Shown in pieces: positions 9,228-36,391 of a stretch of 36,494 bases of DNA. The notes beneath the pieces are model-generated. The model was not told the DNA's origin. It ran no database searches and saw nothing but the letters and a program-made list of their open reading frames with translations. Position numbers and translations under genes: made by a program. The DNA is taken from the IMG/VR virus record IMGVR_UViG_3300003322_000770, positions 1-36,494 of that record. One strand, 5' to 3'. Position 1 is the stretch's first letter; each line of letters starts with the position of its first letter. The DNA comes from a virus.

Positions 9228-10623
9228 TTCAAACGGAAAATTTATAAAACTCACTTTAGACGATGCAAGAACTATCGTTCTGCAAAAGGCAGTACTCGCC
9301 GGGGTAAGTGTTCCAGCCGGATCGGTTGAGGACCAAATAAAAGAGTGGCTCGCCCAAACTTATGTAGACATCGATACCGATGTATATGCGTCCTATGTGA
9401 AACAATTTAATCCAGTTGGATCAGATATTGATTTGCAAAATCCGGGATTCCCAAGGCTTCCGGCAAGTAAAGCAAATGGTTTTCTTCTTATTAATAACGT
9501 CGGCGGATCTTCCAATCTTACGATTTCTATTGGAACGACTTTTACGGCCCCTAATGGAATCACATATACAAATCCGAATGATGCGCTTTCGGTTTTAATC
9601 GGCGAGACAAAATCTTTATACATAGAGGCGTCGAACGCGGGGCCGGAGGGAAATCTTCCAGCACTTCAAACTTTTTCAGGGCTCGCAAGCGGGGTTACTA
9701 CAAACCCGCAGCCGTTAGTCGGTGGTAGAAATGAAGAGACCGACACAGAGTATTTGGATCGTTTAATCTTTTTACGGACGAACCGGGTTAGCGAACAGAC
9801 ATCGGTCGCAGTGATACAAGATCTTTTACAGTATTACGAAGCTGCAAGGATTTATATAAATAACGATGCTAACGGAGTTTCGACTCCTGTAACTGTTCCG
9901 GCGAATGGGTATAATTTAGTTATTTTATTTCCATCCGGAGTGAATGCGGGACCCGCAGAAATTCAAAAAGCGATCGATATTGTAATAAGTCGTTTAGAAT
10001 TTGCGAATGTAAACGCGGAAGTGAACGCGAACCACCCGGCTATAAGCGGCGTTGTTTATACAGGACCTTTCCCACAATCTTACAGTTTTACAGTTGCACA
10101 AGCCATTCAAGTGACTATAAACGCAGTTTTAAACGTGTCTTTCTCGCCAGGATTATCTCTACCGGAGAAAACAGCGTTATCTCAAACGCTCGCACAAAAC
10201 TTTATACAAAGAGTTATGAATGTTCTTGGTGGCGCAAATGGGACTTTTCAATGCACTTTTGACCCACTCATAGGATCGACAGTAGTTGAAAATTTGAATA
10301 TTGTCGGGTTCCAACCAGATAGCATTTCAATCGCGCCGTATTTATCAATTGAAGATATTCGATCCCTAATAGTCGACGTGAGCGATATATTAAATGGGAC
10401 GAATATATTTTTAAGGGCTGTAAACACTTTAACGGTGGAACTGGATACTTTAGAAGTGGGAGAACCGACAGTAACTTTAAGTGTAAATGCTCCGAGCGGT
10501 GGGACAGTTTCGTCTGTCAATTTTGCTACAGAGAATTTATTTAACGACGACACATCTTGGTACGATAGATACATCTTTTTAGATACTTCTTTGATCACTG
10601 TTACGATAAACGAGGTCACATAA
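9220..10623 (+). CDS. Baseplate J-like protein
   Basis: A 467-residue wedge component. The signature is clear: EASNAGPEGNLPALQT is followed by GGRNEETDTEYLDRLIFLRT (residues about 168-187), the conserved GGxxxETDxEYLxR region of baseplate J proteins (Mu gp47, P2 gpJ, T4 gp6). Downstream strands and helices (GYNLVILFPSG, AIQVTINAVLNVSFSPG) also match the family. The C-terminal 90 residues are beta-rich and may contact the fibre. The family norm is 300-400 residues, so this member has a C-terminal extension. It is followed directly by the next gene with no spacer. Confidence 0.85.
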   Translation: MIDSNGKFIKLTLDDARTIVLQKAVLAGVSVPAGSVEDQIKEWLAQTYVDIDTDVYASYVKQFNPVGSDIDLQNPGFPRLPASKANGFLLINNVGGSSNLTISIGTTFTAPNGITYTNPNDALSVLIGETKSLYIEASNAGPEGNLPALQTFSGLASGVTTNPQPLVGGRNEETDTEYLDRLIFLRTNRVSEQTSVAVIQDLLQYYEAARIYINNDANGVSTPVTVPANGYNLVILFPSGVNAGPAEIQKAIDIVISRLEFANVNAEVNANHPAISGVVYTGPFPQSYSFTVAQAIQVTINAVLNVSFSPGLSLPEKTALSQTLAQNFIQRVMNVLGGANGTFQCTFDPLIGSTVVENLNIVGFQPDSISIAPYLSIEDIRSLIVDVSDILNGTNIFLRAVNTLTVELDTLEVGEPTVTLSVNAPSGGTVSSVNFATENLFNDDTSWYDRYIFLDTSLITVTINEVT

Positions 10624-16961: not shown

Positions 16962-17687
16962 TTACGGTGTTACCTCTTCAATTTCTTCTATCGTTTTATA
17001 TACTAAATCATGAAGCGCGTCGTTATACTTTTCAGGTAGTAAAAAAGGATCAGATTTTGAAACCGCCCTGTATGTCCTATAGCTACGAACCGGACGATAC
17101 TCATTAACCGCTTTTAAAATTTGAGGCTTTAAAAAATCAGGAAAATTTTTTGACGCTTTTAAATTTTTTGTAAATCGTGTAAGGAACTCAGTCGCCCAAT
17201 CAATTTTTTTATTTTTTAATAAATCATGGTCTAAATTGTTAAACGCGGAAAAAATTGAACTGGATTTTTCTTTATCGAAAGAATTTTCATGGGTTAACAT
17301 GTATAATGCCTCAGGTGTCACTTTATTAGGTAAAAACTGCCAATTATAATCCCCGCAATGCTTACAATTTATTTTTAATGTATACGCATTCCCTGATTTA
17401 GTAAATCGTTTACAACTACCACAAAAAATTTTAGCGTCGTTTAAATCTATTTTTTGTTTACGGTCTTTTGTTTCCCAGAAAGCGCGTAAAGTGGCTTTCC
17501 TAAGAGCAATTAAAGATTTAACCTTTCGGTTTTGAATAAGTTCTAAAAGGGTCGTAGTAAATTCTTGTCTATCGTCTTCATCTTTAAATTTATGTTTAGC
17601 TATTTGTAAAATATAAATAGCTAAAGAATTCGTAAACTTAAAATCCTCCGCTATAATCTGATCTATAAGTCCTTGATAAATTCCCAT
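16962..17687 (-). CDS. Zinc-finger protein of unknown role next to primase
   Basis: A 241-residue protein with a four-cysteine zinc ribbon: C89-G-S-C92 and C108-K-H-C111, 15 residues apart. The flanks are helical and rich in Lys and Asp. It is coupled to the primase-helicase by a one-base overlap (TAATG) and has a GGAG site. A DNA-binding or replication-accessory role, such as a helicase loader or primase partner, is suggested by context only. It is the last gene before the internal promoter region. Confidence 0.55.
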   Translation of the reverse strand: MGIYQGLIDQIIAEDFKFTNSLAIYILQIAKHKFKDEDDRQEFTTTLLELIQNRKVKSLIALRKATLRAFWETKDRKQKIDLNDAKIFCGSCKRFTKSGNAYTLKINCKHCGDYNWQFLPNKVTPEALYMLTHENSFDKEKSSSIFSAFNNLDHDLLKNKKIDWATEFLTRFTKNLKASKNFPDFLKPQILKAVNEYRPVRSYRTYRAVSKSDPFLLPEKYNDALHDLVYKTIEEIEEVTP

Positions 17688-19867
17688 TACGCGGACTCCG
17701 ATTTTTTAGCTTTCGGTTTTGGAGGCGGGTAATATTTCCAGCCGGCATCTTCTCCGGATCTTTTTTGACGATGTTGAAATCCCCGCGCAAGAAGCCAACG
17801 CGTTACGGCCTTACGGGTTATTGACCCGCGTACTGAAATAGATGCGCACATGTAAGCCGTGTCCATTAAACTTTTAAGCGAAAATTCTTTTTCAAAAATC
17901 GAATCTTCCGACTCATACATATCATCGAGTAGAAGAACGACTTCGGATTTACTTTGTGCTTGCATAAGTAGTTTAGAATCCGTCATAGGGGCGTGCGCAA
18001 AAATATCTAACTCATCTTTACGAGTTTGCAAATATTCTACTATATCCCCAGCGCCTTTTACAAAAGACTCATGTAAAGCTTGGTAGTAGGCAGCGTCTCT
18101 TGGTTTCTCACGGCATTCAACTATATAATATTTCCGGTCGAACATATCGATTAAAAGAGCGCCGATGTTATTCGTCGTTAAAATGAAATTTGTATAATTA
18201 TCCGTTTCGTAGTTACGAGTGAATTTTCCGTTTATCCGTATCTTTGTTTCGGTGATCCAAGTTTTTAGGTGTTCCGTCGCCACGTATTTATCTTGGGTAA
18301 CTTCGTGGAAAAATGTAATTAAATTCGAATCGATAAAATCATTCCAGCCGCTTTTTAGCGCCTGGTTGTCCCCCCGGCTTATATAGCTATGTCCAGTAGG
18401 TGAACGTAATACCGTTTCAAAAAGTTTTTCTAAAGATCCTTTCCCGGTCCCGTGGTGCGGGGAAACGAACACGAGCGCGTGTCGTATTTTTTTCTCTGGG
18501 TAACAGAGAGACACCGCAAAATATTTCTCCAGGTGATCCGCTTCTTCGTCGGTCCGTGTTAAATATTTTAGATGATCCCTAAATCTTTTAACGTGAATTT
18601 TATCCCCTGTCGGCTTTAAAGTACGAAGTCCTGCGAAACTGTTAAAATAAGTTATGTGGTGATCGTCTTCCCAAATCCGTGCGCTCAAGTCTGGTCTAAA
18701 AGACATTTTATCGCAGACTTGAATAAGTCTACTTCCTACTACATAACTTATTTTTATTGGCATTCCTGTCAAAAATGAAAGGGTCGTGGGAATTTGGTCG
18801 GCTTGGTACGCAATAGGTTTTTTTAAATGCCTAAGCGTTGAGTTATCTTGGACGTAAACCCAATCTCTAAGACAGTGACCAATGTGCAGATCGATTCGGA
18901 ATTCTTCTAAGGCGGCCTCTGTCGATTTAGATAAAAACTTCCCAGCCGGACCCGACGCATATTTATAAGCGGAACTTACTTGATGTTCTACAATTTCTTT
19001 TTCTTCCGGGGGGTTACAGTAAAGTTTATTAAATTGCGCCCCTACTTTTAAAGCTTCTTCTTCTTCTAATCCCCAGTCGCGACAACGTATCCCAAAACGG
19101 AAAAGCGCGTTAGATCTTCCAGCCCCCGCTGTAATTATATTTTGCGAGTCTAAGAGAAGATCTTTAATTTCTCTACTCGATAAGGCTTCGCTTACCGGAG
19201 TTTTCTTTTTTCTCTTTTCTGTAGTTTCTACTTTTTTAGCGTCGCCGCCTCCCGCCGCTATTAAGATAAAATCAAAATCTCTTAAATTATATTTCTCCGG
19301 ATTTCCCTCTCGTATCGGCAATTCATAGCCTGGATTTTTCATCCCTTCTTTTATGTGTATTGTCCCAGGACAACGCATTACGGACCCTATGTGGGCCGGA
19401 GCAGGGTCTGCGCCTAAAAGAGTTTGCCCAATTTTTAAAAGCTTAGTAATTTTTTTAGCGTTCGGATCTAATTTACTCGTTATAGGGATCGGCTCTTTAA
19501 AAATATAGTAAATATGGGATCTATCGCCACGACGAAACCAGTAAGTCGGTGTAGGAAAGCCACGATCTTTTAAGTAAGTATGATCGATTCTAAAAGTATC
19601 AAAATCCCAAAAAAGGCATGTAATCATTCGAACATTATTGTCTAAACGTTCTTTACCATATTTCTGGATTGTCCCGGGTTGAAATAGATTCGGTGTGAAA
19701 AAGAGCGTACGATCGGGCTTATGTTGTTTTAGAAAACTCTCTAAATTAGATACATTGATTTGATGCTCTCTATCTGTTTTTAGCTTCTCTGTAAAATAGA
19801 TAATATCTTCGGTAGTTACGCCACCGAAAAGATCTTTAAAGAATTGTAATATATTTTTATCTTGCAC
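17687..19867 (-). CDS. Primase-polymerase / SF3 helicase fusion (D5-like)
   Basis: This 726-residue protein joins two enzymes. Residues 60-200 look like an archaeo-eukaryotic primase domain: the DxD motif in W87-D88-F-D90, a GDRSHIYYIF segment with H117, and MRCPGTIHIK (164-173). Residues about 245-305 match a PriCT linker (RFGIRCRDWG through SSAYKYAS). Residues 450-590 form a D5-like SF3 ATPase: Walker A HHGTGKGS (471-478), Walker B LITFFHEV (516-523), motif C FILTTNN (561-567) and an arginine-finger region DMFDRKYYIVE (574-584). It would unwind and prime phage DNA. The start is GTG, two bases after the stop of a 58-residue gene. The basic end (PPPKPKAKKSESA) may bind DNA. Confidence 0.85.
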   Translation of the reverse strand: MQDKNILQFFKDLFGGVTTEDIIYFTEKLKTDREHQINVSNLESFLKQHKPDRTLFFTPNLFQPGTIQKYGKERLDNNVRMITCLFWDFDTFRIDHTYLKDRGFPTPTYWFRRGDRSHIYYIFKEPIPITSKLDPNAKKITKLLKIGQTLLGADPAPAHIGSVMRCPGTIHIKEGMKNPGYELPIREGNPEKYNLRDFDFILIAAGGGDAKKVETTEKRKKKTPVSEALSSREIKDLLLDSQNIITAGAGRSNALFRFGIRCRDWGLEEEEALKVGAQFNKLYCNPPEEKEIVEHQVSSAYKYASGPAGKFLSKSTEAALEEFRIDLHIGHCLRDWVYVQDNSTLRHLKKPIAYQADQIPTTLSFLTGMPIKISYVVGSRLIQVCDKMSFRPDLSARIWEDDHHITYFNSFAGLRTLKPTGDKIHVKRFRDHLKYLTRTDEEADHLEKYFAVSLCYPEKKIRHALVFVSPHHGTGKGSLEKLFETVLRSPTGHSYISRGDNQALKSGWNDFIDSNLITFFHEVTQDKYVATEHLKTWITETKIRINGKFTRNYETDNYTNFILTTNNIGALLIDMFDRKYYIVECREKPRDAAYYQALHESFVKGAGDIVEYLQTRKDELDIFAHAPMTDSKLLMQAQSKSEVVLLLDDMYESEDSIFEKEFSLKSLMDTAYMCASISVRGSITRKAVTRWLLARGFQHRQKRSGEDAGWKYYPPPKPKAKKSESA

Positions 19868-26956: not shown

Positions 26957-27943
26957 CTAATCCACACTTATAACAAGCCGCGCTTGTTTCCCTTGAACCA
27001 CATAATTAGAGATAACATCTTCTAACTCCGGGTATTCGTTTAACAAAGAGGCGACCGTTTTTAGTTTCGAATCTAAAAACATTTCTACCGGTTTTTTTGT
27101 AATCGAAGCGAGTGACTCCGCATCGATTGAACTATCCCAAGATCTTGGCGCGTTTTGATATTTTAAAGAAACACCGGCTATGTCCGAAAGGACGCCGTCT
27201 TCTAATCTCGCTTTCAGATCTTTTCGGAAACTGTCGATTATTTTGTCAGCTACAGGAAGAATTCGGATAAGATCTGCTGGAAGCTCTTCTACTGGTTTAC
27301 CCCGAAGTTTCGGATTCTCAAATTCTTTAATTACACTTTTTAGTTTTGGGCAATGGTTTCTGTGTTTGCAGTATCTGCAATGTGCTCCGGTGTTTAATTG
27401 TGGTTTTTTTGCTTTAAGGCCTTTTTTTACGTCTTCTACGAAGTTAGTCATCGTTTCGTGGATGTCTGAAATAGTGTAAGTTTCGAACGTTGAGAGCCTT
27501 GTTTCTGTCCCGATATAGCGGCAGATTATTTTTTTAAACCTCGGAGGCACATACTTTTGTGGCTCTTTCATAAAAAGAAACGCGGCTTGAATATTTTGCA
27601 AAGGGTCCATTTCCGAGACATCCGCAAAGCCTGTCTTAAAATCTAAAATGTAAAGCGTATCCCCTTTAACGGCCGCTACGTCTGGACGAGCGTATAAAGT
27701 AACACCTAAAAAAGTATCCTCATAAGCTTTTTCAATGAATAGCCTGGGTTTCTCCGGCAGATAATGAGAAATCCGGTCTGGGATTTTACCCGCCTGCAAC
27801 TCGTCAGTTAGTTTCTTGTGTTCCTCTTCTCCCTTTTTTGCTTCTTCACTTTGTTTTTCTAAAGGGTAACGTTTTGCTTCGAATTCTAAAGATCCTGGAC
27901 AATGTTTTACGATATATGCGTTTGACGCGTTAATTCTTTTCAT
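26957..27943 (-). CDS. Cas4/RecB-like PD-(D/E)xK nuclease with Fe-S cluster (DUF2800-like)
   Basis: The start is ATG 27943, overlapping the upstream stop as ATGA; an upstream TTG is rejected. The 328-residue protein has GEEEH (38-42), the catalytic D88 and D101-F-K103 with downstream QNIQ (116-119), and four cysteines that would hold a 4Fe-4S cluster: C15, C189, C192 and C198. This is the layout of DUF2800/Cas4/AddB-type nucleases, which process DNA ends with an exonuclease. With the SSB and helicase it would form a recombination-replication set. The C-terminal 120 residues are helical with unknown role. Confidence 0.8.
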   Translation of the reverse strand: MKRINASNAYIVKHCPGSLEFEAKRYPLEKQSEEAKKGEEEHKKLTDELQAGKIPDRISHYLPEKPRLFIEKAYEDTFLGVTLYARPDVAAVKGDTLYILDFKTGFADVSEMDPLQNIQAAFLFMKEPQKYVPPRFKKIICRYIGTETRLSTFETYTISDIHETMTNFVEDVKKGLKAKKPQLNTGAHCRYCKHRNHCPKLKSVIKEFENPKLRGKPVEELPADLIRILPVADKIIDSFRKDLKARLEDGVLSDIAGVSLKYQNAPRSWDSSIDAESLASITKKPVEMFLDSKLKTVASLLNEYPELEDVISNYVVQGKQARLVISVD

Positions 27944-28953
27944 ACTTTTATCCCCGTGATTTCCTCGAATAATATTGGGTTCCAATTAGGAATTGATTCT
28001 AATATTTTCCTAATATCATTAGTAATTCCGGGAATCGCTTTCGCCCAAGATTCTTTATAAGATAATTTTTTTAAGTATCCGCCAAGAGTTTCGTGATGTG
28101 GAAATTTTTCTTTTTCTTCATCCGACATATCCTGGCTGAATATAAATTCATTGATTGGGAGTTCTAACCTCGCTAAATACAAATACCATTCACTGTTATT
28201 CATTTCTTCAAATGTCAACAGTGAATCTTTATTGAAGATTCTAACATTAGGCGTTACTGTATTTAATACTCCAGAGTTCCAGTCCCCGGAGTTCCAGTCC
28301 CCGGAGTTACTGTCCCCGGAGTTACCGTTCCCGGAGTTACTGTCCCCGGAGTTACCGTTCCCGGAGTTCCAGTTCCCGGAGTTCCAGTTCCCGGAGTTAC
28401 TGTCCCCGGAGTTACTGTCCCCGGAGTTACCGTTCCCGGAGTTCCTGACCCCGGAGTTCCAGTTCCCGGAGTTCCTGACCCCGGAGTTCCAGTTCCCGGA
28501 GTTCCAGTTCCCGGAGTTCCTGACCCCGGAGTTCCAGTTCCCGGAGTTACTGTCCCCGGAGTTACCGTTCCCGGAGTTACCGTTCCCGGAGTTCCAGTTC
28601 CCGGAGTTACCGTTCCCGGTATTGTTTAAACCAGTATTACATATTTTATAAATTTCATTCCAATCTAATTCTTTAACAATATGAATAAATTCAACGCATG
28701 ATTTATCCGATTCGGATTCGATCGCTAATGACTTGTCATAGTGAATAATTGCTACTTTGTTTTTAGGATTCCATTCCTTATAGATAAAACAATCTATGAG
28801 ATTATTGCAAAAATGAAACCCTCTTTCGCAAATTTTTATAGGACCATCTATGGTATATTGCTTGCCGACTTCGAATTGAAAATCTCTGCATTTCCAGTTT
28901 TCATCAAAAACCTTGTATCCAACCCCTAAGTTCTCTTGTTTTATCTCTCTCAT
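27940..28953 (-). CDS. DUF7666-like protein with 23 NSGxx pentapeptides
   Basis: The gene starts at ATG 28953 (GAGG site), not at the upstream TTG. Of 337 residues, 1-105 match the DUF7666-type domain (GYKVFDENWKCRDFQFEVGK; CERGFHFCNNLIDCF). Residues 116-230 are 23 perfect NSGxx units (xx = NW, NG, DS, VR, DW or VL), and about 105 charged residues follow. NxGxx pentapeptides can form a beta-helix; related phage proteins have no known function. It is the first gene of the long leftward operon, so it is expressed early. The repeats are coded by nearly identical 15-bp DNA units, so copy number can change by slippage or recombination. Confidence 0.75.
   Translation of the reverse strand: MREIKQENLGVGYKVFDENWKCRDFQFEVGKQYTIDGPIKICERGFHFCNNLIDCFIYKEWNPKNKVAIIHYDKSLAIESESDKSCVEFIHIVKELDWNEIYKICNTGLNNTGNGNSGNWNSGNGNSGNGNSGDSNSGNWNSGVRNSGNWNSGNWNSGVRNSGNWNSGVRNSGNGNSGDSNSGDSNSGNWNSGNWNSGNGNSGDSNSGNGNSGDSNSGDWNSGDWNSGVLNTVTPNVRIFNKDSLLTFEEMNNSEWYLYLARLELPINEFIFSQDMSDEEKEKFPHHETLGGYLKKLSYKESWAKAIPGITNDIRKILESIPNWNPILFEEITGIKV
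28264..28608 (-). repeat. 15-bp minisatellite (23 units) inside the NSGxx gene
   Basis: On the - strand 23 units share a nearly fixed AACTCCGGG core (NSG; last unit AACTCTGGA) followed by two variable codons drawn from a small set: AACTGG, AACGGT, GACAGT, GTCAGG, GACTGG or GTATTA. Similar but less perfect units lie on both sides (28249-28263 and 28609-28638). Confidence 0.9.
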
Positions 28954-28989
28954 TTCAATGACCTCTATAATCCCGATCAATCGGTTTCC

Positions 28990-29105: not shown

Positions 29106-29285
29106 ATGAAAAAACAAAAAACAAAAACTGTAAAACGTGAACGTGGCCGTCCGTCCGTACCAAAAGAAATTCTTAAAAAAATGAAAGGCCTTTTAAAAAA
29201 AGGATTAAACTATAGTATCGTTGCGGCCGAAACGGGTGTTTCGATTGGAACAGTTTGTCACTATAACAAGGAATGGAAACTATGA
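29106..29285 (+). CDS. Small helix-turn-helix DNA-binding protein, 59 residues
   Basis: The product starts MKKQKTKTVKRERGRPSVPK and then carries a helix-turn-helix of resolvase/homeodomain type (EILKKMKGLLKKGLNYSIVA, then AETGVSIGTVCHYNKEW). The very basic arm followed by RGRP resembles an AT-hook plus HTH. The gene is divergent from the long leftward operon and sits next to an inverted repeat (28990-29010), so it is the best regulator candidate in the window. It has an AATAGGAAAC site before the ATG. It is too small for a complete repressor with a dimer domain, so it may act as a dimer through the HTH itself or with a partner. Confidence 0.65.
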   Translation: MKKQKTKTVKRERGRPSVPKEILKKMKGLLKKGLNYSIVAAETGVSIGTVCHYNKEWKL

Positions 29286-31245: not shown

Positions 31246-31484
31246 TTTACGTATTTAACTTTATGTCTGTCTCTGTCCTCTAAAACCGTTACTCTCGTAT
31301 GCAAGTCGTGATTTGTTTTTATGACCGTATCTAATTTTTGTTCAATCCGTTCCGTCGTATTTGTGTAAGTCGTAACACGGTCTTGCAGAGTTACGAATGC
31401 TACGATACAAAAAAGTATCGGAGAAAAAATCACGATCAGATCTTTTAGATTTTCAACCGTGATTTTATTTTCCGATTTTCTCAT
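31242..31484 (-). CDS. Single-TM, coiled-coil protein, 80 residues
   Basis: One TM segment at about residues 15-33 (LIVIFSPILFCIVAFVTL) followed by a charged helix with heptad-like spacing (TTERIEQKLDTVIKTNHDL). This is the usual shape of phage accessory holins or XhlA-type proteins placed next to a holin. It overlaps the holin candidate by 20 bases and the next gene by an ATGA. Confidence 0.55.
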   Translation of the reverse strand: MRKSENKITVENLKDLIVIFSPILFCIVAFVTLQDRVTTYTNTTERIEQKLDTVIKTNHDLHTRVTVLEDRDRHKVKYVK

Positions 31485-31836
31485 TTAACTTTTTCTTTCC
31501 GAAAGGTATAAGATAGTCTTTTACAATTTTATAAAGTATCATAGCTGAAAAATACGCTATGAAAAGTTTAATGAGAAGTAAGAAAAATCCAGTAAGGGTT
31601 TGAAGAGAGAAACCGTGCTGTAAAGCTTCCACAAGAAAAGCGGTTATTCCAAAGAATCCGGCGAGTAACGTGTAATGAATAAAGATTATCGATTTTTTTG
31701 GAGCAAATCCTTTTAAGGGGCCAAAATCATAAAGGGCGATTGAAGAGAGTAAGGCCGAGAGAATGTAGCCTAACGTTATCCAAAGGGAATTTGCATCAAA
31801 TAGATACAAATTTAAAGCGTAAAAAAGTTGATCCAC
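31465..31836 (-). CDS. Holin candidate, three TM segments
   Basis: A 123-residue protein with TM segments at about residues 18-38, 48-70 and 80-105 and a basic C-terminus (FGKKKLNEKIGK), the size and topology of a class I holin. It is first in a leftward block that includes a peptidase and other membrane proteins. It starts with GTG and has no clear Shine-Dalgarno site. The name is inferred from topology and context, since holins have little sequence conservation. Confidence 0.55.
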   Translation of the reverse strand: MDQLFYALNLYLFDANSLWITLGYILSALLSSIALYDFGPLKGFAPKKSIIFIHYTLLAGFFGITAFLVEALQHGFSLQTLTGFFLLLIKLFIAYFSAMILYKIVKDYLIPFGKKKLNEKIGK

Positions 31837-31849
31837 ATTATTCTATTCG

Positions 31850-31895
31850 GTTAAAATCGGGAAATGTCGTTAAAATAGTTATAAAGAGTTAAAAA
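31850..31895. repeat. Helically phased GTTAWAAW repeats
   Basis: GTTAAAAT at 31850 and 31869, GTTATAAA at 31878 and GTTAAAAA at 31888 start 19, 9 and 10 bases apart, close to whole turns of the DNA helix. They lie directly upstream of the leftward holin gene. Confidence 0.55.
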
Positions 31896-31915
31896 GCTGT
31901 CCTTTTGGCGGCTAT

Positions 31916-31936
31916 TTAGTTTGAGGGCCAAACTAA
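31916..31936. repeat. Palindrome 1 (TTAGTTTG arms)
   Basis: Arms TTAGTTTG and CAAACTAA, 8 bp each and perfect, around a 5-base centre. Confidence 0.75.
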
Positions 31937-31943
31937 TTTCGAA

Positions 31944-31964
31944 TTTTTAGAATGATTCTAAAAA
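31944..31964. repeat. Palindrome 2 (TTTTTAGAAT arms)
   Basis: Arms TTTTTAGAAT and ATTCTAAAAA, 10 bp each and perfect, around one central G. Confidence 0.8.
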
Positions 31965-32006
31965 TAAAAAGTTTGTCAAAATGACACTAAAAACAGTGTT
32001 TTTCCC

Positions 32007-32019
32007 TGCCAAACTGGCA
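32007..32019. repeat. Palindrome 3 (TGCCA arms)
   Basis: Arms TGCCA and TGGCA, 5 bp, around three bases. Shorter than its neighbours, so chance is possible. Confidence 0.45.
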
Positions 32020-32032
32020 AAAACGACCTTTT

Positions 32033-32053
32033 TTAGTTTTGTAACAAAACTAA
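32033..32053. repeat. Palindrome 4 (TTAGTTTTGT arms)
   Basis: Arms TTAGTTTTGT and ACAAAACTAA, 10 bp each and perfect, around one central A. The half-site resembles that of palindrome 1 with one extra T. Confidence 0.8.
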
Positions 32054-32075
32054 TTACAAGTTTAGTGCACTGCAA

Positions 32076-32098
32076 TATCTAAGTAATTTACTTAGATA
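32076..32098. repeat. Palindrome 5 (TATCTAAGTAA arms)
   Basis: Arms TATCTAAGTAA and TTACTTAGATA, 11 bp each and perfect, around one central T. It is made of two opposed copies of the ATCTAAGTAA motif. Confidence 0.85.
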
Positions 32099-32523
32099 AT
32101 TGGCCATTTTTACTTAGATATTTTGGAGCAAATAAGTAAAATTTTTTACAGAGCGTTTCGAATCGCCAAATGGGGGCATTCTACTCAAAAAGCAGGGTAT
32201 TTCCGCTATATATATATAAGAAATAAAAAAAACACTCTTTTTAAAAACAGTATATATGTCATAATAACATATTTAATTTTATACACTTCTTTTTCTTTAT
32301 TTCATTCTCTATAAATATAAAATATCTAAGTAAAATAAGTAAATATTGGATCTGGGCCTATAGAACAATAGTATGGGCCATTTCGTGAGACACGTTATGC
32401 GGTCATGTAAATAAGTAAAATAAGTAAGGGTTTTACAAGTGTTAAAATTTGCGGTAGGATTCGGGTTTTAAGGGCTTTTAGGATTTACGGGGTTACTTAG
32501 ATTTTTTTGGCAAATCTAAGTAA
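32077..32523. repeat. Iteron-like ATCTAAGTAA family (six copies)
   Basis: Exact copies lie at 32077-32086 (+), 32088-32097 (-), 32110-32119 (-), 32324-32333 (+), 32493-32502 (-) and 32514-32523 (+). Related ATAAGTAA units lie at 32132, 32335, 32411 and 32420. Multiple sites in both orientations suggest cooperative binding of one protein. Confidence 0.8.
32493..32523. repeat. Palindrome 6 (TTACTTAGATTT arms)
   Basis: Arms TTACTTAGATTT and AAATCTAAGTAA, 12 bp each and perfect, around a 7-base centre. It reverses the order of the half-sites in palindrome 5. Confidence 0.8.
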
Positions 32524-32596
32524 GGGCCTTCAAATCGCCAAACGGAGCTATACGTAAAGTATTGTTAAAAGTGTGACATGTGGCAATTTAAAAAAG

Positions 32597-32612
32597 TGCT
32601 TAATTTTAAGCA
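32597..32612. repeat. Palindrome 7 before small terminase
   Basis: Arms TGCTTAA and TTAAGCA, 7 bp each and perfect, around TT, ending 36 bases before the small terminase ATG. Confidence 0.55.
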
Positions 32613-32648
32613 GTCGACCCAAAGATTTTTAACCGAAGTATATAAAGA

Positions 32649-33119
32649 ATGCCCGCACCAAAGAAAACTCGTAAATCCAGCGCGGCCGTAAGGGCGAGAC
32701 GTGTAAAAAACGCAAAAGAGAACCTTGTTCCGAGTATTCCAATATTAAGAAATACTAATGAACTTTTAGAGATAGAGAAACGCGCGCGGCATTTAGCACG
32801 CGCAGAAATCGCTGAGATGTGGCCCCGTATTAAATCAATGACTGTAAGAGATATTCTTGCGTTAGATACTGAAAAACTTACTATAGTAGAAGGTATTTTT
32901 GTTAAGTGTTTACAAGCGTCTTACCATAAAGGCGACACCGATGAGATTCATCGGATGTATGATCGTTTGCTTGTGGGTAGTGTTCGCGGTCTTCCTAACG
33001 ATACGGTGGATATAGGTGGAACAACTTTTACAGTCGATCTAATGGAAGACGATTCTCCGCCGGTCATAGATGCGGAAGTTATTCAATCCGAACAACAAGA
33101 TTCGGAGTTAGCCTCTTGA
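32649..33119 (+). CDS. Small terminase subunit (putative)
   Basis: A 156-residue protein with a very basic N-terminus (APKKTRKSSAAVRARRVKNA), a helical centre and an acidic C-terminus (about residues 130-156). This fits a DNA-recognising small terminase. It lies directly before the large subunit, whose TTG start overlaps its TGA stop. The call is by position and composition; no family motif is clear. The packaging site may lie in or near this gene or in the repeat region upstream. Confidence 0.65.
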   Translation: MPAPKKTRKSSAAVRARRVKNAKENLVPSIPILRNTNELLEIEKRARHLARAEIAEMWPRIKSMTVRDILALDTEKLTIVEGIFVKCLQASYHKGDTDEIHRMYDRLLVGSVRGLPNDTVDIGGTTFTVDLMEDDSPPVIDAEVIQSEQQDSELAS

Positions 33120-34390
33120 ATTTAAAAATATCGTTATTACCGAAACAACATGAATTCGTGCATAGCGTTTCTCCGATCAATATCTATGCGGGGGGTGTAG
33201 GCGCCGGTAAAACCATTTCGGATGTAACGCTTATAATCAAGTTAGCTTTAGACTATCCTGGTATAGAAATTCTTGTAGGTGCTCCGACTTATGGAATGTT
33301 GTTTGATACGATCTTTAGAGAATTTAAACAAAGGTGTCCTTCTTTCCTAATCTGGAAATTTCGTGAAGGCGCAAAACCCGAAGCGGTTTTCCAGCCGAAT
33401 AAAGGTAAATGTTCAAGAGTAAGATTTAGAGCATTTGACGACGTAGGGAAACCTAAAGGTTTAACGGTTGGTGCGGCTATCATCGATGAGGTTACCGAAA
33501 TGGAAGAAGATGTCTTAGAAGAGATTCTAAGACGTTTACGACAAAAAGGGATGCCAAACAAAGCGTGGCTGACTACGAATACGGATTCTAAAGAACACTG
33601 GTTTTATAAGCGTTTCATCGGTCCAGTTGAACAAGGGATACTTACGAAACAAGATGTGCATTATATACATACCACTTCATTCGAAAACTTTAAACTTCCG
33701 GAAATATATTTAAAACAATTAGAAAAGCTTAAAGTTTTACGGCCTGGACATTATCAAAGAGCGGTCCTCGGAAATTGGGGTGACTTTAACGATGGGGCGA
33801 TTGGGGCGTTTTTAGAATGCGACAATTTTACAAATCCTTATAGGGTCGCTTTCATCGATACGAGTTATTCGGATCGTAAAAAGAGCGACCGTACAGCGGT
33901 GAGTATTGTTTCGTTTGACGTGCAACCTGGAACAAATAGTTTATACTGGCCAATCCAATTCACTGGTAAGAGCTGGCAAAAGAGTATCACTGATCCAACC
34001 GTAATTAAAGAACTATTATATTTCTTGGATCAGTATAAACCGATCGAAACTTGTGTAGAATCGCAGCTTGGCGACTCGACAAAAATATTCCTTGAAAACT
34101 TTAGAAATGCTGAAAGACAATTAGGACTACAAGTAAAGAATCATTGGACTTGGCAGCACCAGACTAAAAACAAGCACGAACGAATTATGTTTGAAGTCGC
34201 CGGAGCAAAAGACCGGATGTACGTACTTAAAGGAACTGACATGTCGTATCTTAGCCCGGTCATGGCTTATGTTAAAGGAATAGACCATGAGGATGAAATT
34301 GATTCTCTCGGTTCGGCTATAGCGCTTTGGAAAGTTTCTAAGGCTTTGCAGACTTACATTCGTCTCAATGAGACAAGGCGCGTTGTATGA
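33116..34390 (+). CDS. terL: Terminase large subunit
   Basis: A 424-residue packaging motor. Walker A is G26-G-V-G-A-G-K-T33, Walker B AAIIDEVTEM with D124-E125, and the coupling motif TTN at 153-155. The C-terminal nuclease carries D248 (AFIDTSYSD), E315 (CVESQLGD) and an acidic pair near D393/D396 (HEDEIDSLG), as in RNase H-like terminase nucleases. It starts with TTG overlapping the small subunit's stop (TTGA), an unusual start that implies translational coupling. The length is normal for this type. It pumps DNA into proheads and cuts it. Confidence 0.93.
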   Translation: MNLKISLLPKQHEFVHSVSPINIYAGGVGAGKTISDVTLIIKLALDYPGIEILVGAPTYGMLFDTIFREFKQRCPSFLIWKFREGAKPEAVFQPNKGKCSRVRFRAFDDVGKPKGLTVGAAIIDEVTEMEEDVLEEILRRLRQKGMPNKAWLTTNTDSKEHWFYKRFIGPVEQGILTKQDVHYIHTTSFENFKLPEIYLKQLEKLKVLRPGHYQRAVLGNWGDFNDGAIGAFLECDNFTNPYRVAFIDTSYSDRKKSDRTAVSIVSFDVQPGTNSLYWPIQFTGKSWQKSITDPTVIKELLYFLDQYKPIETCVESQLGDSTKIFLENFRNAERQLGLQVKNHWTWQHQTKNKHERIMFEVAGAKDRMYVLKGTDMSYLSPVMAYVKGIDHEDEIDSLGSAIALWKVSKALQTYIRLNETRRVV

Positions 34391-34806
34391 TAGAACTATC
34401 TTTCGGTGTCAAAGACAAAACAATTAAAAAGGGTAAGCATGTCGTTACACTTGGACAGATCGCGCTCTTTAATGAGTACGGAACAGAGAAGATCCCGCCC
34501 CGCCCTGCGTTTCGTGAAGGTTTGGAACACGCAGTAAGAGAGAATAAAAAAGCAACGGAAGCACAACTAAAAAATATTGCTCAGAGACTTCTTACAGGAC
34601 GTAACGCGGAAGTTAAACGAAGTCTTACTGTTTTACTTACACAAATTGGAAGGATGGCTAAAGCCAAAACAAAAGAAATAATTAAACAAGGTTCCACAAC
34701 GCCGAATGCTCCAAGCACTATCGCGCGTAAAGGTTTCGATCATCCGTTATTCGAAACGGGTTTACTATTAGAAAGTATTGAATATGAGGTTCACGATGAG
34801 CGTTGA
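34387..34806 (+). CDS. HK97 gp10-like neck protein
   Basis: A 139-residue protein coupled to the large terminase by ATGA. Its pattern is GQIALFNEYGTEKIPPRPAF then, near the end, HPLFETGLLLESIEYEV. This is the EYGTxxxPPRPF ... TG.m..SI layout of gp10-like tail-completion or neck proteins. Its place between terminase and portal is unusual: such proteins are generally encoded after the capsid gene. It overlaps the portal by 11 bases. Confidence 0.65.
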   Translation: MIELSFGVKDKTIKKGKHVVTLGQIALFNEYGTEKIPPRPAFREGLEHAVRENKKATEAQLKNIAQRLLTGRNAEVKRSLTVLLTQIGRMAKAKTKEIIKQGSTTPNAPSTIARKGFDHPLFETGLLLESIEYEVHDER

Positions 34807-36391
34807 CTATAAGTTAGTACAATTATTTAAAGGAATAAAAGCTTTAAAAGATATTCCGATTGCACAATTGAAAGAGAATAAAGGTCTTTTACAAGAGATA
34901 CAAGACGTTGTTAATTCTAAATTTATCCAAGGAATAGTTTCGGATTTAAGAAACGAGCAGCTTAGCACACAAAATATAGCATTACAAGATTCTAATAAAT
35001 CATTTTTAAAAGTGGAAGACCTTACATTCTTAACAAAATTTTCCAGGTTTAAAAATGGGATGCACGACAGGATTTCGAAAGGTCGTCCTGTAGCATATAC
35101 TAAAATATTATCCATGGCCGAAGCTGTAGCAGGTCGTAAAGATTTTGCGGAAGCTAAAAATGTAAGCACGCGATTCAAGGAAGCGAAAGAATTTAAAGAA
35201 GCATATAACTCAATTTTTTCCGATCGTTCTCTTCAAATCGGCACGGATCAAGATCCTACGATTATACAAAGCTACATCGATTTCAGTCCGTATATTAATA
35301 ACTATCAATACTATTTAGCGATTCCGACACTTTCGCAAACAATCGATAAGGGCATTCAAATCGCTACAAGAGAATTACCGGAAATTATAACGGATGATAA
35401 AAATCTGACGGATGAACTTTATAAATATATAAAACGTTATAACGTAAATTCAAAGATTCAACGTTTGCTTTTTTATTCTCATTTATCGCCAAGAGGTTCC
35501 GTATTAGTCCCAATTGAAGAAAACGGAAAAGTCCGTTTTAATGTTTTCAACGATACGCAATTTACCTATTCTGTAAGCCCTAACTACAATAAGATTGATT
35601 TCTATGACACCGGAAATAGTGTAGCGAACATCTACGTCCTTGGATATAACTTGCAGAACGGCGTCACTTGTCATTTTCTCTGCCCAGGTTTCGAACCGAT
35701 TTACGGGGTCGGAAAGAATAGGATCTATCAATTAAAAGGTGCGGCTGAGGCGATTAATATCTATCTTTACACGATTAAAGTTCTCTGCATCCGTGCACAA
35801 GTGCTCGTGCAAAAGTGGAATGGTGAGGGTCAAAGTGATACACTTTTAGCGGAATTACAAAAGTTAAGTCAGGACATCGATTCAAAACTTTCCCTTTCTA
35901 CGGCTCTTAAAATGCCGGATAATGCGGAACTTGAGATCTTGAATAATAACATAAACGAAGGCTTTTCTAAAGTAAGCCCGATCATCAAAGAATATATGGG
36001 GATGCTCGCTGGTATCATGCCGGACTATTTCTTTGGTTCCGATACTGCGTATTCTGCTAACTCGTTTAATATTCAGGTCACTCACCAAAATATCCGTTCC
36101 GATATTCAAGAGCCACAGATTGAACCAGCTTATCGGTACATAATCAATACACTTTTGAGGAGCGATTCAAGATTTGCTAAATGGAAAAACTTAGAGGATG
36201 ATTTTGAGATTAAATTCCCATCTTTGTACGAGCCGACAGAGGTAGAAAAGGCGGACATTGATACAAAACGAATCGATAACTTGATTAAAATGGCGGACTA
36301 TCCGGAGCTACAAGACATCTTTAAAAAAGAGGGTCTACTCGATTCGATGTATAAAATGGAAGCGAAGGGCGACATTGACGAAGAAACATGA
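34796..36391 (+). CDS. Portal protein (DUF1073-like)
   Basis: The start is ATG 34796 with GAGG seven bases before it; TTG 34778 and ATG 34784 are less well placed. The 531-residue product follows the terminase and a neck gene. It resembles DUF1073 portals, with YYLAIPTLSQTIDKGIQIAT in the early middle, then SPRGSVLVPIEENGKVRFNV, and MLAGIMPDYFFGSDTAYSAN, the region with a G-x-P and acidic residues typical of portals near the C-terminal third. It forms the 12-fold ring for DNA entry. The first about 150 residues are helical and unusually long for the family. Confidence 0.8.
   Translation: MSVDYKLVQLFKGIKALKDIPIAQLKENKGLLQEIQDVVNSKFIQGIVSDLRNEQLSTQNIALQDSNKSFLKVEDLTFLTKFSRFKNGMHDRISKGRPVAYTKILSMAEAVAGRKDFAEAKNVSTRFKEAKEFKEAYNSIFSDRSLQIGTDQDPTIIQSYIDFSPYINNYQYYLAIPTLSQTIDKGIQIATRELPEIITDDKNLTDELYKYIKRYNVNSKIQRLLFYSHLSPRGSVLVPIEENGKVRFNVFNDTQFTYSVSPNYNKIDFYDTGNSVANIYVLGYNLQNGVTCHFLCPGFEPIYGVGKNRIYQLKGAAEAINIYLYTIKVLCIRAQVLVQKWNGEGQSDTLLAELQKLSQDIDSKLSLSTALKMPDNAELEILNNNINEGFSKVSPIIKEYMGMLAGIMPDYFFGSDTAYSANSFNIQVTHQNIRSDIQEPQIEPAYRYIINTLLRSDSRFAKWKNLEDDFEIKFPSLYEPTEVEKADIDTKRIDNLIKMADYPELQDIFKKEGLLDSMYKMEAKGDIDEET

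Follow-up and report, generated by a model that had tools for sequence, protein, structure and literature searches.

The 36,494-nucleotide stretch of viral DNA analysed here (hereafter the window) is part of a 38,764-bp virus record (IMG/VR IMGVR_UViG_3300003322_000770; genome G000) and contains, at 31837–32648, an 812-bp gap that separates a leftward gene block from the rightward packaging genes. The gap carries a cluster of palindromes and an array of short repeated motifs (iterons) arranged around an AT-rich core. We consider this array as a candidate replication origin, for which a DUF5906 primase-helicase encoded elsewhere in the window is the proposed initiator.

Inverted iterons around an AT-rich core

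The motif ATCTAAGTAA occurs in six exact copies in the gap, which are all of its exact copies in the window, and is accompanied there by four clear degenerate copies (32130, 32333, 32409 and 32418) and two weaker ones with two mismatches. Among the copies are head-to-head and tail-to-tail pairs (32077/32088 and 32493/32514) as well as direct doublets with a 9-bp period (32324/32333 and 32409/32418). The core is bracketed by a perfect 17-nt inverted repeat (32108–32124/32319–32335). Calculation from nearest-neighbour energies places the 80-bp stability minimum of the entire genome inside this core, starting at 32261. Features of the origin class discussed below are found here: two mutually inverted motif sets, an easily melted AT-rich region between them, and a primase-helicase of the SF3/D5 kind encoded by the phage itself.

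The gap also contains a second repeat, TTCGAATCGCCAAATGGGGGC / TTCAAATCGCCAAACGGAGC, at 32157–32177 and 32529–32548. Within 31904–32542, GCCAAA is present six times when its complement is counted as well.

Arrays in relatives of the window phage

Close relatives of the large terminase and of the protein encoded at 85–1587 were found in only four other IMG/VR records, and G000 and these relatives form a rare myophage clade. No relative was found in GTDB genomes searched with the same two proteins, viral contigs searched with the primase alone yielded none, and a DNA similarity search against annotated phages and plasmids gave no match to the window. The corresponding intergenic region is available in G002, G003 and G004; the record of G001 ends before reaching it.

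Each of the four clade members whose records include this region, the window phage among them, has an AT-rich core flanked by an array of an 8–10-bp motif that occurs in both orientations, with the probable small-terminase gene downstream. No two of the phages share the motif: the relatives carry ATCCCACAAT, CCCATACC and AAGTCACC (array motifs by genome: CATACCCC in G002, GTCACC in G003 and ATCCCACAAT in G004), and all eight CCCACAAT copies of G004 lie within 550 bp. The conserved traits are the inversion of the motif sets about the core and the doublets of 8–9-bp period. Since the motif differs in every member despite related virion proteins (roughly 30–66% identical across the clade), it seems that iteron and initiator evolve rapidly and in step. 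DUF5906 primase-helicases are also encoded by G003 and G004.

To evaluate the arrays genome-wide, we scanned for k-mers repeated on both strands, using a filter that retains two-letter words such as TGTGTTGGG. The array was the top locus in each genome (p = 3e-13 in G000, 3e-11 in G002, 1e-12 in G003 and 2e-17 in G004), and other loci in these genomes reached about 1e-8 or weaker. P4, the positive control, was recovered at 8e-13, and T7, the negative control, gave nothing. The corresponding 80-bp stability minimum of G004 (31184) falls at its core and that of G003 (28225) at the core edge; the G002 core is within the least stable 3% of its genome. The probable small-terminase gene, pointing away, follows the array directly in G000, G002 and G003, and in G004 two small genes stand between them. 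From the array of G002, the terminase genes run one way and the structural genes, starting with portal, the other.

Arrays beside DUF5906 primase genes in other phages

An array of this design follows the DUF5906 primase gene, on its 3′ side, in ten other annotated phages. They comprise Stenotrophomonas phages S1 (4e-19) and Suzuki (about 700 bp 3′ of the primase, 7e-20), Pseudomonas phage KT1 (9e-15), Serratia phage JS26 (2e-9, a marginal score, with clear inverted CCTACGCAAT doublets), and Pseudomonas phages SC_9, Turba, Presto, Lodos, PG1 and pAN. The last six, with KT1-like primases, have inverted sets of TGTGTTGGGT directly after the primase stop codon (6e-15 to 8e-29). The sample of DUF5906 phages was picked by similarity, and the seven Pseudomonas phages share related primases and hence are not independent. 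The association of the array with DUF5906 is frequent, not universal.

A borderline match in Stenotrophomonas phage AXL_3 (2e-9) is located in coding sequence rich in Glu, and we excluded it. Another possible origin is seen in Pseudomonas phage KPP23 (L059), where about nine direct copies of GTAAAACGAA occupy a non-coding gap (9400–9640) far from both primase and terminase.

Palindromes at the left edge of the array

An earlier note on this DNA described five palindromes within 31916–32098. All are present, with the coordinates corrected for one and an arm length for another: the palindrome at 31943–31965 has arms of 11 (given before as 31944–31964, arms of 10), and that at 32007–32019 has arms of 5 only. 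The palindromes do lie inside that interval, and the feature as a whole reaches to about 32523, well past its end; the palindrome at 32493–32523 (loop of 7), outside the interval, is longer than any listed there.

The window contains 13 palindromes with arms of at least 8 and loops of at most 6, as compared with 5.7–6.9 in shuffled controls (Markov order 1–3), and four with arms of at least 10, as compared with 0.5–0.7. Four of those with arms of at least 8 fall within 183 bp, their starts spanning 161 bp, against a maximum of two per 200 bp in the shuffles. The 809 bp at 31840–32648 hold five, against 0.38 (maximum 2) in shuffles of the same region, and no other 809-bp stretch of the genome exceeds this count. 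The shuffles and the comparison of stretches thus bear out the proposed excess beyond chance. Conservation of the arms in relatives, which had been named as a test, was not seen; the corresponding regions of the three relatives hold 0–2 such palindromes, and we rejected palindrome density as a conserved trait.

The terminator scan found no GC-rich stem with a T tract at any of the palindromes, in agreement with the view that they are not terminators, and an Rfam search gave no match. Among the functions that had been suggested for them (operators, an origin or a packaging element), the origin is best supported, through the iterons and the melting core and not through the palindromes themselves. 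An operator function is plausible for 31916–31936 and 32033–32053; 32076–32098 consists simply of two iterons head to head. The sequence TTAGTTT-N7-AAACTAA occurs exactly twice in the window, with identical half-sites and equal spacers, and to judge from this pattern the two copies look like a separate operator pair of a dimeric regulator. Nothing in the analysis supports the suggested link to the helix-turn-helix protein encoded at 29106. We read the palindromes at 31916–32053 as a lineage-specific element beside the putative origin, most likely serving as operators of the leftward promoter.

Table 1. Features of the gap and genes referred to in the text (window coordinates; a point marks a feature without assigned strand)
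Feature	Position	Strand	Basis
Palindrome TTAGTTT-N7-AAACTAA, operator-like, first copy	31916–31936	.	Palindrome and motif count
Palindrome ATTTTTAGAATGATTCTAAAAAT, over the -10-like hexamer of the leftward promoter-like site	31943–31965	.	Palindrome and promoter scan
Promoter-like TTGACA-16-AATCAT, toward the leftward gene block	31952–31979	-	Consensus match only, 10/12
Palindrome TTAGTTT-N7-AAACTAA, operator-like, second copy	32033–32053	.	Palindrome and motif count
Two iterons (ATCTAAGTAA) head to head; fourth palindrome of the earlier note	32076–32098	.	
Iteron ATCTAAGTAA, left arm of the 17-nt inverted repeat	32110–32119	-	
AT-rich core between inverted iteron sets, 74% A+T	32125–32318	.	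Stability scan
Degenerate iteron AAATAAGTAA	32130–32139	+	
Iteron doublet, 9-bp period	32324–32342	+	
Degenerate iteron doublet, 9-bp period	32409–32427	+	
Iteron pair as palindrome, arms of 12	32493–32523	.	
DUF5906 primase-helicase, 726 aa, proposed initiator	17687–19867	-	Domain search and structure-database homology
First gene of leftward block, 123 aa, hydrophobic; putative lysis role	31465–31836	-	Position only (lysis role)
Probable small terminase	32649–33119	+	Position before large terminase; 32% identity to G002 counterpart
Large terminase, rightward packaging block	33116–34390		
Portal, rightward packaging block	34778–36391		

A putative replication origin

We propose that the region from about 32076 to 32523 is probably an origin at which the phage's own primase-helicase starts replication, with the palindrome interval as its left edge. 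This reading is favoured because the same design follows DUF5906 primase genes elsewhere and matches both the origins of phage-inducible chromosomal islands (PICIs) and ori/crr of P4. The top genome-wide rank of the array in the four clade members, the low stability of the core, the DUF5906 primase-helicases of G000, G003 and G004 and the GC-skew minimum of G000 at 31.5 kb also speak for it. The primase-helicase would bind the ATCTAAGTAA iterons on both sides of the core and assemble as rings on the two inverted iteron sets. The core, as the least stable DNA of the genome, would then melt and the primase-helicase would prime synthesis, forks presumably leaving outward in both directions along the two divergent gene blocks.

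The origins of PICIs, including the Staphylococcus aureus pathogenicity islands (SaPIs), resemble the window in having an initiator of the D5/SF3 helicase kind and an iteron that varies from element to element. SaPI Rep helicases read iterons through their C-terminal domain (PMC7581432, a review). The window differs in belonging to a full-size phage and in the place of its array, between two divergent gene blocks. In ori/crr of P4 (NC_001609 annotation), 8-bp type 1 repeats likewise stand in both orientations, with doublets 9–11 bp apart; one set lies just 3′ of the alpha primase-helicase gene (crr) and the other away from it in a divergent intergenic region (ori). The window array is like P4 ori in being separated from its proposed initiator gene. 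The P4 motif is a different one (GGTGAACA), and P4 needs two separate elements, whereas one array was found in the window; alpha and the window primase-helicase have no significant sequence similarity (hhalign E = 0.25). Among solved structures, the one nearest to the window protein's helicase region is the C-terminal region of phage NrS-1 PrimPol (E = 2e-25), which is hexameric and SF3-like (PMC7102993). NrS-1 PrimPol (6k9c, 6k9e) reads a specific 8-nt sequence, of which the NrS-1 genome has only two copies and, in contrast to the window, no iteron array (PMC7102993).

Several observations weigh against the origin. In the window phage, 12 kb separate the primase-helicase gene from the array, which adjoins the probable small terminase. 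PICI origins directly follow the 3′ end of their initiator gene (PMC6092414), an arrangement found in S1, JS26, KT1, Turba and others and absent from the window (17687–19867 as against 32076–32523); because this adjacency rule failed, we did not file the array as a PICI origin, although on the evidence here it is predicted to work like one. Nine other DUF5906 records had no such array in the stretches scanned, and a distant relative with a 28% identical primase (G009) has a weak AT-rich doublet only. The AlphaFold model of the primase-helicase (pLDDT, the predicted local distance difference test score, 44) was too poor for modelling a binding domain. Finally, the cumulative GC skew of the G000 circle, with its minimum at 31.5 kb and maximum at 13.1 kb, is confounded at the minimum by the gene-strand switch at the same place, and the same confounding affects the minimum of G004 (29.8 kb).

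The strongest rivals are divergent promoter control and a packaging site. In the first, which we consider unlikely as the main function, the motifs would bind a phage protein that activates or represses the leftward and rightward operons. The position of the array in a divergent intergenic gap is consistent with such control, as are the two-copy operator-like sequence and the overlap of the palindrome at 31943–31965 with a 10-of-12 promoter-like site on the - strand. The promoter and terminator scans were weak, though, with promoter-like matches not far above shuffles (9 as against 4.1 ± 2.2). About ten iterons over 450 bp, with direct doublets of 8–9-bp period and inverted about a melting core, exceed the needs of two promoters, and the genes left of the array differ among the relatives. 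Promoter control may coexist with an origin.

Repeated short motifs near a small-terminase gene are also known from packaging sites: P1 pac is flanked by hexamers, and lambda cos has R sites. A packaging-initiation site (pac or cosB), where the small terminase would recognise motif copies that flank the cut region, accords with the probable small-terminase gene directly after the array in three clade members, with the remoteness of the clade array from the primase gene, and with S1 and Suzuki, whose arrays have the small terminase or a predicted cos nearby. We nevertheless regard it as improbable. A packaging site does not need a melting core, yet the window array, unlike P1 pac and lambda cosB, includes the stability minimum of the genome, and arrays of this design are found next to primases in other phages; the array lies at the primase stop codon in KT1, Turba, Presto, Lodos and PG1, where small or lysis genes come next and the terminase is not adjacent.

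There is also little likelihood that the palindromes at 31916–32053 work through single-strand folding, whether as priming or ssi-like hairpins or as a stem-loop origin, rather than as duplex protein sites: although 31910–32058 folds as a single strand into a row of six hairpins (z = -5.1) and stem-loop origins have been proposed for replication proteins that contain SF3 helicase domains, those of pRN1 and phage BIP-1 (PMC4234260), the palindromes are not conserved in the three relatives, and the identical half-sites and equal spacers of two of them fit protein binding better.

As for the wider meaning of the replication origin favoured here, we tentatively suggest, with less confidence than for the window itself, that phage origins served by DUF5906/SF3-kind primase-helicases form a widespread class, from satellites to full-size phages, with inverted iterons, a melting core and fast-changing, lineage-specific iterons; in the window clade the origin would have become separated from its initiator and stand between divergent gene blocks by the packaging genes. 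If so, this placement could couple replication, transcription and packaging. The organisation of PICI origins has been described as common to no known bacterial replicon besides PICIs (PMC6092414), and the Pseudomonas phage arrays suggest that it is broader. A recognisable design tied to a common primase-helicase family would permit origins, known for only a minority of phages, to be predicted from sequence alone.

Other features of the genomes

For the putative lysis gene at the head of the leftward block, Pfam and PHROGs searches gave no convincing match. An open reading frame crosses the ends of the G000 record: 38279–38764 joined to 1–84 encodes a full-length homologue of a G004 protein, which indicates that the IMG/VR record is a complete circular genome, closing at a point away from the array. 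On this 38.8-kb circle the gene-strand switches and GC-skew extremes (31.5–32.5 kb and 13 kb) are nearly opposite each other, which is not so in G004.

In G009 (L031), 1459–1544 comprise TTTTCTTTAAATTCTTTAAAA and, 60 nt further along, its perfect inverted copy of 13 nt. This pair lies at the stability and GC-skew minimum of that genome, about 5 kb from the terminase, and makes a weak candidate for the same type of element.

We treated the coding tandem repeats at 28101 in G000, 15101 in G004, 3301 in G009 and both ends of G006 as unrelated and excluded them. The G006 repeat, rich in Gly, Ser, Asp and Tyr, spans both record ends, so the record probably closes or breaks within the repeat gene. 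In the window, the gene at 27940–28980 (- strand) encodes a 346-residue protein with a DUF7666 domain and pentapeptide repeats, and is built on a 22-fold DNA repeat unit, the strongest repeat of the genome.
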